Of a stretch of DNA of 38,804 nt, positions 9,542-17,685 are shown one piece after another. Below the pieces are notes generated by a model, which saw only the letters and a program-made list of their open reading frames with translations, was not told where the DNA came from and searched no databases. Made by a program: the position numbers and the translations under genes. The number at the start of each line of letters is the position of its first letter. The stretch's first letter is position 1. Source of the DNA: Microbacteriaceae bacterium (GTDB lineage Bacteria; Actinomycetota; Actinomycetes; Actinomycetales; Microbacteriaceae); assembly GCA_022701925.1 (NCBI GenBank), contig JAKONM010000141.1:1-38804 (forward strand), given 5' to 3'.

Positions 9542-9570
9542 GGGCCGCGCGGCACTGCGCGGCGCGGCCC
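9542..9570. terminator. 9-bp stem hairpin at the end of rsrA
   Basis: GGGCCGCGC-GGCACTGCGCG-GCGCGGCCC, adjacent to the rsrA stop. Confidence 0.5.
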
Positions 9571-9812
9571 TAGTGGGCGATGGTGACGCGCAGGCTCGTG
9601 ACCACCTGCAGGCGCAGCGCCTCCGGCGCCGCGCCGTCCCGGCAGGCGCGCTTCACCGCGTCGGTCAGCACGCGGCCCACGTGGGCCTCGTCGGAGCAGT
9701 CGGTGCAGTTCGCCAGGTGCTCCGCGATGTCGGCGTACTCATCACGGCTCAGCTCCTGGTGCAGGTACTCCTCGAGCTCGGACTTCGCCTTCTCGCATCC
9801 GCAGTCGGACAT
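9570..9812 (-). CDS. rsrA: Anti-sigma factor RsrA/RshA-type, zinc/thiol redox sensor (ZAS family)
   Basis: MSDCGCEKAKSELEEYLHQELSRDEYADIAEHLANCTDC...; H-x3-C-x2-C motif plus N-terminal cysteines; directly downstream of sigR. Confidence 0.92.
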   Translation of the reverse strand: MSDCGCEKAKSELEEYLHQELSRDEYADIAEHLANCTDCSDEAHVGRVLTDAVKRACRDGAAPEALRLQVVTSLRVTIAH

Positions 9813-9819
9813 CGGACGG

Positions 9820-10623
9820 TCACGCTCCCTTCGGCGTCGCGCGGCGCGAGACCGCCCCGATGGCGATCCCCCGCTCCTGCGCGTAGTCGGTCAGTCGTTC
9901 TCGCAGCAGCCGGCGCCCGCGGTGCAGGCGGCTCATCACGGTGCCCACCGGGGTGTGCATGATGTCGGCGATCTCCTGGTACGCGAAGCCCTCGACGTCG
10001 GCCAGGTAGACGGCCATCCGGAAGTCCTCGGGGATCGACTGCAGCGCGTCCTTGACGGAGGAGTCGGGCAGGTGGTCGATCGCCTCGGCCTCGGCGGAGC
10101 GGGAGATGCGGCTGGCGGACGTCGTCGACGTCGCCTCGCCCAGCTGCCACTCCTCCATGTCGTCCGTGCTCGACTTGTAGGGGTCCCGCTGCTTCTTCCG
10201 GTACGTGTTGATGTACGTGTTCGTCAGGATCCGGTAGAGCCAGGCCTTCAGGTTCGTGCCCTGCGTGAACGACCGGAAGGCGCTGAAGGCCTTCACGTAG
10301 GTCTCCTGCACCAGGTCCTGCGCGTCGGCCGGGTTGCGGGTCATGCGCATCGCGGCGCCGTACAGCTGGTCGAGGAAGGGCAGCGCCTGCTCCTCGAACA
10401 GCGACCGCAGCTCCCGCTCGCCGGGCGCGGCGTCCGCGAGGGTCTCCTCGACCGCATCGCGCGCCTCGTCCTCGGCCTCGTCGACCGCCTGGTCGTCGAG
10501 CCTCGCGAGCGCCTCGCGGTCCGCCTGCTCGTCGTCGACCAGGGCGTCGTGCGCCTCGGCGTCGAGGGGGGACGGCTCCCGGCCGGCGGGCTGGGAACCG
10601 GGCTCGGATGCGGGTCGCGGCAT
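9820..10623 (-). CDS. sigR: ECF RNA polymerase sigma factor SigR/SigH (thiol-oxidative stress)
   Basis: [55 protein letters not shown]...; an in-frame upstream GTG at 10746 gives a 308-aa extended form. Confidence 0.93.
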
Positions 10624-10747
10624 GTCAGCGGAGTGTAGTTGCGGGGCGCCGGACGCCAGTGGGAAGCGGGCGACGCGAGGGTCGCCGACGAGGACTGCCG
10701 TCATCGCGCGCTCCCCTCGGTCCGACGCCCGGCCGCACGGCCGCACC

Positions 10748-10753
10748 TAGGGT
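10748..10753 (+). promoter_or_regulatory. -10 element for leaderless aroA
   Basis: TAGGGT followed by 7 nt, then ATG (10761). Confidence 0.5.
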
Positions 10754-10755
10754 GG

Positions 10756-10781
10756 AACCGATGCCCGCCGCCCCCTATTCC
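10756..10781 (-). promoter_or_regulatory. SigR/SigH-type promoter upstream of sigR
   Basis: Minus strand: GGAAT-(agggggcggcgggcatcg, 18 nt)-GTT; exact GGAAT-N18-GTT. Confidence 0.75.
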
Positions 10782-12089
10782 GCGTCCTCCTCCCCCGCCG
10801 CCTGGCCCGCCCCGACGGCGACCCGGCCGCTGAACGCCCTGGTGCGGCTGCCCGGTTCGAAGAGCCTGACGAACCGGGAGCTGGTGCTCTCCGCGCTGGC
10901 CGGGGAGCCGTCGCGGCTGCGGCACGCGCTGCTGGCCCGGGACACCCTGCTGATGGTCGAGGCGCTGCGCGCGCTGGGCGCGGGCATCGAGCAGCAGGGC
11001 GCCGACCTGGTCGTCGCCCCGGGCCCGCTGCGCGGCGGCACCGCGGTCGACGTCGGGCTGGCCGGCACCCTGATGCGCTTCCTGCCGCCGGTCGCCGCCC
11101 TGGCCGACGGCCCGGTGCGGTTCGACGGCGACGAGCGGGCACGCCTGCGGCCGATGGGCGGCACCGTCGCGGGGCTGCGCGCCCTGGGCGTGCGGGTCGA
11201 CGACGACGGCCGCGACGCACTGCCCTTCGCGGTCGAGGGGCGGGGCGCCGTGCAGGGCGGCGCGGTGCGGATCGACGCGTCCGCGTCCAGCCAGTTCGTG
11301 TCGGGCCTGCTCCTGGCGGGGGCGCGCTTCGCGGAGGGGCTCGAGGTGGAGCACCGGGGCGAGCGGCTGCCGTCGGTGCCCCACATCGACATGACCGTGG
11401 ACGCGCTGCGGCGGCGGGGCGTCGAGGCGTCCTCCGCGGTCGCGGGCGGCACGGGACGGTGGCGGGTCGCCCCGGGGGCGATCGCCGGCCGCGACCTGAC
11501 CGTCGAGCCCGACCTGTCGAACGCCGCTCCGTTCCTGGCCGCGGCCCTCGTGGCGGGCGGGCGGGTCGCGGTGGCCGACTGGCCGGAGTCGACGACCCAG
11601 GTGGGCGACCGGCTGCGGGAGTGGCTGGCGGCCTTCGGCGCCGCGGTGCACCGCGACGGCGGCGCGCTGGTGGTCGACGGCGGCGACGGCGTCGCGTCCG
11701 GCCGGCGCCTCGCCCCCGTGCACCTGGACCTGGGCGAGGGCGGCGAGCTGGCACCCACCCTGGTCGGCCTGGCCGCCTTCGCCGACGGCACCTCCGTGTT
11801 CAGCGGCATCGGCCACCTGCGCGGGCACGAGACCGACCGCCTGGCCGCGCTGGTCGCCGAGCTGACCGCGGTGGGCGTGCGGGCGGAGGAGACGGACGAC
11901 GGGCTGGTCGTGACCGGCGGCGCCACCCGCGCCGGCGACCGCCCGTGGGGCAGCTGGGCGGACCACCGCATGGCGACGACCGGCGCCCTGGTCGGGCTGG
12001 CGACACCCGGTCTCACGGTCGAGGACGTCGCGACCACCGCGAAGACGCTGCCCGGCTTCACCGACCTGTGGTCCGGGATGCTGCAGTGA
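10761..12089 (+). CDS. aroA: 3-phosphoshikimate 1-carboxyvinyltransferase (EPSP synthase)
   Basis: LPGSKSLTNRELVLSALAGEPS, GLAGTLMRFLPPVAAL, SWADHRMATTGALVGL. Confidence 0.96.
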   Translation: MPAAPYSASSSPAAWPAPTATRPLNALVRLPGSKSLTNRELVLSALAGEPSRLRHALLARDTLLMVEALRALGAGIEQQGADLVVAPGPLRGGTAVDVGLAGTLMRFLPPVAALADGPVRFDGDERARLRPMGGTVAGLRALGVRVDDDGRDALPFAVEGRGAVQGGAVRIDASASSQFVSGLLLAGARFAEGLEVEHRGERLPSVPHIDMTVDALRRRGVEASSAVAGGTGRWRVAPGAIAGRDLTVEPDLSNAAPFLAAALVAGGRVAVADWPESTTQVGDRLREWLAAFGAAVHRDGGALVVDGGDGVASGRRLAPVHLDLGEGGELAPTLVGLAAFADGTSVFSGIGHLRGHETDRLAALVAELTAVGVRAEETDDGLVVTGGATRAGDRPWGSWADHRMATTGALVGLATPGLTVEDVATTAKTLPGFTDLWSGMLQ

Positions 12090-16233: not shown

Positions 16234-17685
16234 TCACACGGACCTGCGGTGCCGCAGGTCGGTCAGCGCGAACACCAGGGCGCCCAGCAGCACCACGAAG
16301 GCCAGCCCGCCGCCGCCCAGCACCGCCAGGTGGTAGTCCGGCAGCCGCGAGCCCGCCGGATCGGCGTTCAGCACGGTGAAGAAGACCGCGGAGGCGCCCG
16401 CGACGCCCATGGCGGTGCCGACCCGCTGCCCGACCTGCCCCACCGAGGCGGCGACGCCGCCCTGCTGCACCGGCACCTCCGACAGCGTCAGCGTCTGGTT
16501 CGGGGACACGACCGCCCCGCCGCCGGCTCCGGCCACCAGCAGCGCCGCGGCCATCAGCCAGGGCGCCAGCTGCGGCGGCGCCAGCACCGCGGCCGTCAGC
16601 GACAGGGCGAAGCCGACCAGGGCGATCACCAGCCCGACGACCACCAGCGCGCGGCCGTAGCGCGAGACCAGCCGGCCTGCCGCGTAGGCGGTGGCGGCGC
16701 TCGCGAGCGCGAAGGGGATGGTGACCATGCCCGCGAACACGGGGGCGAGCCCCAGCCCCTCCTGCAGGAACAGCGTGTTCAGCAGGAAGGTCGCGGGGCC
16801 GGCGGCGAACCAGGCGGTGGCCACCAGGATTCCGTTGCGGTAGGAGGCCCGCTCGAAGAGCCGCACGTCGACGGCGGGCGTGCGGCCGCCGGCGCGGTAG
16901 CGGCGCTCCCAGAGGATGAAGGCGGGCAGCAGCCCCGCGGCCGCGACCAGTGCGAGCCAGCGCAGCGGGCTGTCGCCGGGCTGCCCCGTCGTCAGGACGA
17001 ACGGCAGCATGAAGGCCACCACCGTCGCGCCGAGCAGCCCGATGCCCACGGGGTCCAGCGACTGCCGGCCCTGCTTCGGCGCTCCTCCGGGCAGCGTCCT
17101 CGCGGCCAGCACGAACAGCACCACCCCGAGGGGCACGTTCATCCAGAAGATGTACCGCCAGCCGTCCTGCTCGCCGCCGACGGCGATCAGGGCGCCGCCG
17201 ATCGTGGGCCCGAGCGCGGTGCCGATGCCGACGCTGGCCCCGTAGACGCCCAGGGCGCGCGCCCGCGCCTCCCCCTGGAACAGCTCCTGCGCCAGGCCCA
17301 GCACCTGCGGCATCTGCAGGCCGGCACCGATGCCCTGGGCGAAGCGGGCGACCAGCAGCAGCCCGGACGTCGGCGCGATCGCGCACAGCAGGCTGCAGAC
17401 GGTGAAGACCGCGAGCCCGATCAGGAACATGCGGCGGCGGGAGGTCACGTCGCCGAGCCGGCCGCCCGGCACCAGCGACAGCCCGAAGGCGAGCGCGTAG
17501 CCGGCGACGATGATCTGCAGCTCGGTGGGACCGGCGTCGAGGGCTCGGTCGATGGAGGGCAGGGCGACGTTGACCTTCGAGAGGTCGAGGATCGTCAGCA
17601 CGGCCACCGCGATGCTCACTGCGAACGCGCGCTTCTTGGCGCCCTCGTCCAGGTCCGCCGCCCGCTGCGCTGTTGCGGCGGTCAC
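16234..17685 (-). CDS. MFS transporter, DHA2 (drug:H+ antiporter, 14-TMS) type
   Basis: LDLSKVNVALPSIDRALDAGPTELQIIVAGYALAFGLSLVPGGRLGDVTSRRRMFLIGL...; GTG start. Confidence 0.9.
   Translation of the reverse strand: MTAATAQRAADLDEGAKKRAFAVSIAVAVLTILDLSKVNVALPSIDRALDAGPTELQIIVAGYALAFGLSLVPGGRLGDVTSRRRMFLIGLAVFTVCSLLCAIAPTSGLLLVARFAQGIGAGLQMPQVLGLAQELFQGEARARALGVYGASVGIGTALGPTIGGALIAVGGEQDGWRYIFWMNVPLGVVLFVLAARTLPGGAPKQGRQSLDPVGIGLLGATVVAFMLPFVLTTGQPGDSPLRWLALVAAAGLLPAFILWERRYRAGGRTPAVDVRLFERASYRNGILVATAWFAAGPATFLLNTLFLQEGLGLAPVFAGMVTIPFALASAATAYAAGRLVSRYGRALVVVGLVIALVGFALSLTAAVLAPPQLAPWLMAAALLVAGAGGGAVVSPNQTLTLSEVPVQQGGVAASVGQVGQRVGTAMGVAGASAVFFTVLNADPAGSRLPDYHLAVLGGGGLAFVVLLGALVFALTDLRHRRSV

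Follow-up and report, generated by a model that had tools for sequence, protein, structure and literature searches.

Two predicted nested promoters and two predicted SigR isoforms at a sigR-rsrA locus of the Microbacteriaceae

Layout of the sigR-rsrA locus

The window examined here is positions 1 to 38,804 of contig JAKONM010000141.1 (assembly GCA_022701925.1, Microbacteriaceae bacterium), and all coordinates refer to its forward strand. The minus strand carries sigR together with an rsrA-like anti-sigma gene, and aroA diverges from them on the plus strand. In profile searches, the sigR product scored 313.2 bits against TIGR02947 (cut-off 251.55), placing it in the SigR/SigH family of ECF sigma factors. 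The product of the adjacent gene scored 51.2 bits against TIGR03988, under that profile's cut-off of 62.5, and contains the HxxxCxxC motif of zinc-binding anti-sigma factors in the form HLANCTDC. The features discussed below are as follows.

9570 to 9812, minus strand: rsrA-like gene for a zinc-binding anti-sigma factor (Pfam zf-HC2 above cut-off; TIGR03988 E = 9.7e-14)
9820 to 10623, minus strand: sigR, reading frame of the short isoform (TIGR02947, SigH_actino, E = 5.7e-94; sigma-70 regions 2 and 4)
10621 to 10623, minus strand: ATG that begins the 267-aa short isoform, predicted to be leaderless (Shine-Dalgarno energy +1.9)
10632 to 10637, minus strand: TACACT, predicted -10 hexamer of sigRp1 (p1), housekeeping (SigA) type, inside the extension codons and 8 nt before the short ATG
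10624 to 10704, minus strand: 27-codon N-terminal extension of SigR' (frame open in relatives; purifying selection on codons 2-8 only)
10702 to 10704, minus strand: ATG, best-supported start of SigR' (294 aa), an in-frame start led by a Shine-Dalgarno (SD) sequence in relatives
10711 to 10718, minus strand: predicted SD of the long isoform, GAGGGGAG (-11.4 kcal/mol to the anti-SD)
10744 to 10746, minus strand: GTG, earlier proposed as the long start, and predicted transcription start region of sigRp2 (p2), 9 nt after GTT
10748 to 10753, plus strand: TAGGGT, putative -10 hexamer of the divergent aroA promoter, over the sigRp2 start region (TANNNT before the aroA ATG in relatives)
10756 to 10758, minus strand: GTT, putative -10 element of sigRp2 (spacer N18 here, N17-19 in relatives)
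10777 to 10781, minus strand: GGAAT, putative -35 element of sigRp2 (sequence match; conserved in Microbacteriaceae)
10761 to 12089, plus strand: aroA (TIGR01356 E = 2.4e-103), its start codon within the sigRp2 spacer

A SigR-type promoter motif is conserved before sigR across the family

A sequence-only reading of this DNA had placed a GGAAT-N18-GTT promoter upstream of the sigR/rsrA pair, and we recovered it on the minus strand at 10781-10756 with a spacer of exactly 18 nt. The strict motif matched twice in the window, against 0.27 matches expected. We compared 92 distinct sigR loci of the Microbacteriaceae whose upstream sequence was long enough: 78 carried the strict form and 90 the looser form GGAA[TC]-N17-19-GTT, while 0.16% of shuffled 420-nt upstream regions held the strict motif; the loci are related to each other, so these counts are not independent. 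The looser form was also present in 60 of 71 loci from other families of the order and in 25 of 27 from other orders of the class, the latter being weaker evidence since a wide stretch was searched.

This genome has 16 occurrences of the strict motif. In the loci retrieved around them it precedes trxB, msrA, sufB, infC, rbpA, rpoD and a gene for a ClgR-like regulator (assigned with a profile score below its cut-off), and a DsbA-like gene, IMP dehydrogenase, an ADH-like oxidoreductase and MFS transporters also lie just 3' of a site. The motif thus stands before thiol-stress genes, the arrangement of a SigR/SigH-RsrA redox system. Known SigR targets include rbpA, clgR and sufB. In Streptomyces, infC and the genes for thioredoxin and methionine sulfoxide reductase have been described as part of the SigR regulon (PMC5472188), and the motif-bearing set as a whole appears typical of a SigR-like regulon. 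Family-wide conservation and this gene set together support the view, already put forward from the sequence, that the promoter before sigR is autoregulatory.

Some of these sites bear observations of their own. The second motif in the window (16808-16833, minus strand) lies 67 nt before an MFS-like ORF and may reflect either chance or a further SigR target. The IMP dehydrogenase site has an ATG 10 nt after GTT, a possible link between stress and purine synthesis. A SigR-type site also precedes infC, which encodes IF3, as it does in Streptomyces; the infC ORF found here begins inside the protein (profile position 57), and its true start may be non-canonical.

SigR' probably starts at ATG 10704

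As the sequence-only reading had it, the GTG at 10746 falls nine nt after GTT and opens a 308-aa frame (9820-10746), 41 aa beyond ATG 10623. However, its SD energy is -3.4 kcal/mol, versus -11.4 at ATG 10704. SD-led in-frame starts were found in 86 of 91 Microbacteriaceae loci (the other 5 had no strong SD start), and among the candidate starts from GTT to the short ATG, the one with the best SD shares the sigR frame in nearly all family loci. Each of the six congeners compared has GTC or GAC in place of GTG 10746, and any start in the leaderless register after GTT occurred in 9 of 91 family loci. The in-frame GTG is therefore not conserved, and comparison with the congeners rules it out as the conserved long start.

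We weighed the alternative that p2 mRNA starts at or next to GTG 10746 and directs leaderless synthesis of a 308-aa SigR', either in place of the 294-aa protein or together with it. The exact 9-nt distance suits this reading, as do the in-frame ATG or GTG codons 8-10 nt after GTT in 31 of 60 loci from other families of the order. Within this genome, an ATG or GTG stands at +9 or +10 after GTT in 5 of the 15 other SigR-type sites, where about 1 is expected, which suggests that leaderless mRNAs from SigR promoters may be common here. Against it stand the substitutions in congeners and the scarcity of starts in this register within the family, together with the strong, conserved SD at ATG 10704 and the selection described below on residues 2-8 as counted from that codon. 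We therefore consider a leaderless 308-aa product unlikely. The register of the near-leaderless GTG start first suggested has parallels both outside the family and at further SigR-type sites of this genome; the conserved long start is ATG 10704.

GTG 10746 is thus probably not the main long start, and the best-supported SigR' is a 294-aa protein initiated at ATG 10704. Because the conserved SD-led start is ATG 10704, the extension would comprise 27 aa rather than 41. A strain-specific 308-aa form from GTG 10746 is possible.

The extension frame is open, and its first codons are constrained

Conservation of the reading frame upstream of the short start had been set beforehand as a test, and the sigR frame proved open in 156 of 158 loci. 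Counting from 56 nt after GTT to 15 nt before the short ATG, we found 2 stops in 3183 codons of the sigR frame, whereas the other two frames contained 28 (of 3142 codons) and 57 (of 3084), together 85 in 6226, making stops ~20 times rarer in the sigR frame (p = 4e-13). At this locus an N-terminal extension in the sigR frame follows the SigR-type promoter.

Across 20 independent close pairs, pN was 0.044 and pS 0.117 for codons 2-8, versus 0.192 and 0.196 for later codons; the split between first codons and the rest was chosen after the alignment had been seen, and the Fisher test is modest (p = 0.016). Over the whole extension the codon-position counts (56/65/68) showed no clear third-position excess, and dN/dS was 0.83. 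The first residues are often of the kind M-A/T-x-A-x-L. The alignments indicate that the reading frame is maintained and its opening residues are constrained, while the remainder drifts in sequence and length. Such a pattern would fit a short N-terminal signal, for example a degradation tag, carried on a flexible linker.

These data bear on the idea that only the short protein exists, p2 serving simply for autoregulation and the open frame ahead of the short start arising incidentally in GC-rich DNA. Open frames are indeed common at high GC (the other two frames were open in 134 and 115 of the 158 loci), and pN about equals pS over most of the extension. Yet the ~20-fold depletion of stops in the sigR frame, the SD-led start that shares the sigR frame in 86 of 91 family loci and the purifying selection on the first codons all speak against it, and we judge this explanation very unlikely. 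The same open frame, conserved SD start and selection pattern support the earlier proposal that the SigR promoter specifies a longer SigR isoform.

An internal promoter is predicted to make the short isoform leaderless

In a count over 194 loci across Actinomycetes, made without preference for any spacing, TANNNT stood exactly 8 nt before an in-frame ATG 166 times; TANNNT-N8-ATG is present in 170 of the 194 loci. No locus had TANNNT at spacings of 3-7 or 9-12 before an in-frame ATG, and out-of-frame ATGs in the same loci showed no spacing-8 peak. The centre of the hexamer varies while its T-A-T is kept, forcing NTA codons, which make up 1.4% of comparable gene-body codons; since the loci were selected by the hexamer, the weight of this comparison lies on the single spacing and on the gene-body contrast. 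The short start lacks a strong SD in every TANNNT-N8-ATG locus, with no energy reaching -7. We saw no clear -35 element of p1 in the window. Outside the order, TANNNT-N8-ATG was absent from 16 of 27 loci, including a Streptomyces-like locus with a GTC start.

In mycobacterial promoters TANNNT is the common -10 motif, with its centre 7-12 nt before the transcription start; the genome concerned has many leaderless genes (PMC3898074). Both the short form of sigR and aroA show this pattern, with TANNNT at -10 distance and no SD, and TANNNT-N8-ATG looks by sequence like a housekeeping promoter that serves the short form separately, downstream of p2. Short AT-rich strings can imitate leaderless start signals, though not with one fixed spacing. 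We predict that the p1 hexamer inside the extension, overlooked in the earlier reading, is the second half of the switch and would make the short isoform leaderless.

Should TANNNT-N8-ATG be no promoter and ATG 10623 an internal methionine, only the long protein would exist. The long frame is open everywhere and the short ATG lacks an SD, as expected on this account; it leaves unexplained the single 8-nt spacing (170 of 194 loci), the variable hexamer centre and the retention of rare NTA codons, and a SigR made solely from its own promoter would have no basal source. We give this account very little credence.

The predicted sigR and aroA promoters overlap

On the plus strand of the window (10748-10763), the aroA start lies within the sigRp2 spacer and the putative aroA -10 upon the predicted sigRp2 start region. 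Among 93 Microbacteriaceae loci, 86 have the aroA ATG inside the p2 spacer, and all 86 have TANNNT 7-9 nt before it. Because this places the aroA hexamer where p2 would begin transcription, use of one promoter would be expected to preclude use of the other. The single 8-nt spacing at the short sigR start, against 7-9 nt at aroA, is plausibly explained because indels there would shift the SigR' frame.

That GGAAT is kept only as the complement of aroA codons 6-7 (Tyr-Ser), GGAATA in the window being the complement of TATTCC in the aroA frame, is almost certainly wrong: GTT lies outside aroA yet is retained at N17-19, the GGAAT/GTT pair persists even where the spacer lacks an aroA start, and the motif precedes trxB, msrA, rbpA and other genes of this genome.

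A proposed two-promoter, two-isoform switch

Taken together, the comparative evidence makes it likely that this is a sigR-rsrA operon whose two nested promoters each determine a different isoform of SigR. In unstressed cells, housekeeping RNA polymerase would start at p1 (TACACT, 10637-10632), at or next to ATG 10623, yielding a leaderless mRNA for the 267-aa SigR, which RsrA would keep inactive. Under thiol-oxidative stress, RsrA would be oxidised and SigR freed, and p2 (GGAAT-N18-GTT) would fire from a start near 10746; on this mRNA the SD before ATG 10704 would direct synthesis of the 294-aa SigR' and amplify the response. Because the internal ATG 10623 has no SD, p2 mRNA should yield little short form, and p1 mRNA could not yield the long form; isoform identity would therefore follow promoter choice. 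By analogy with Streptomyces, SigR' would probably have a short life and be cleared by Clp proteases after stress ends; the clgR-like gene with its SigR-type site fits the same loop and is consistent with Clp removal of SigR'. The Streptomyces-like two-isoform feedback first proposed for this locus thus keeps its SigR promoter and its longer isoform, and probably loses GTG as main long start along with the 41-aa extension.

More tentatively, the arrangement might amount to an order-wide and purely transcriptional SigR isoform switch, a reading we think possible but not probable. A housekeeping promoter within the long-form codons would give a leaderless short form, and the SigR promoter a long form that is SD-led here and itself leaderless in other families. 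Leaderless initiation would then replace the weak Streptomyces GTC start as the brake on short SigR, perhaps in an IF3-sensitive manner given the SigR-type promoter of the IF3 gene here, and p2 firing would shut the aroA promoter.

The 8-nt spacing and the open extension lead to precise predictions, namely two transcription starts and two N-termini. The annotated start codons of sigR in these genomes should be revised. The aroA overlap predicts a link between thiol stress and aromatic amino-acid synthesis.

Comparison with known systems

The sigR-rsrA system of Streptomyces coelicolor, with SigR and SigR', was reportedly described by Kim et al. in 2009. As in that species, an upstream SigR-type p2 would serve the extended SigR' and a downstream p1 the short form of the same sigma/anti-sigma pair, and infC has a SigR-type promoter. 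As described in PMC5472188 and PMC4921905, the SigR-dependent p2 of Streptomyces gives an N-terminally extended, unstable SigR' and p1 the short SigR, both starts being led by ribosome sites. The Streptomyces short form begins at a GTC behind the ribosome site AGGAGGTG, and its extension is 55-58 aa long. Here, unlike Streptomyces, the short form has a canonical ATG without SD, 8 nt after the -10 hexamer and predicted to be leaderless, and the extension is 27 aa; no GTC start behind an extensive ribosome site is present, the energy at ATG 10623 being +1.9, and no family locus has a strong SD there.

Other actinobacteria share parts of this layout. Mycobacterium tuberculosis sigH and sigE likewise have two promoters each; for sigEp1 a leaderless mRNA is reported, and upstream of it lies a promoter of the SigE/SigH type. 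The leaderless promoter there is described for sigE, not for the SigR orthologue sigH, and the passages of PMC4921905 compared here, from which these points come, describe no nested long-isoform frame. The orthologous sigH-rshA pair of Corynebacterium glutamicum is likewise served by several promoters; unlike here, rshA has a separate promoter (PMC3489674) and the sigH ATG stands behind an appropriately placed ribosome site (PMC5472188).

In the literature compared, which did not include Kim 2009 and Kim 2012, we found no published description of a leaderless short isoform, of an order-wide fixed spacing or of the aroA overlap. While the switch itself is known from Streptomyces, its leaderless wiring, fixed spacing and aroA overlap thus appear to be new, with prior description in Kim 2009 or 2012 possible. 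The comparison indicates that the SigR/SigR' feedback design has been kept across an actinobacterial order with other translational wiring, the isoform being set by promoter choice.
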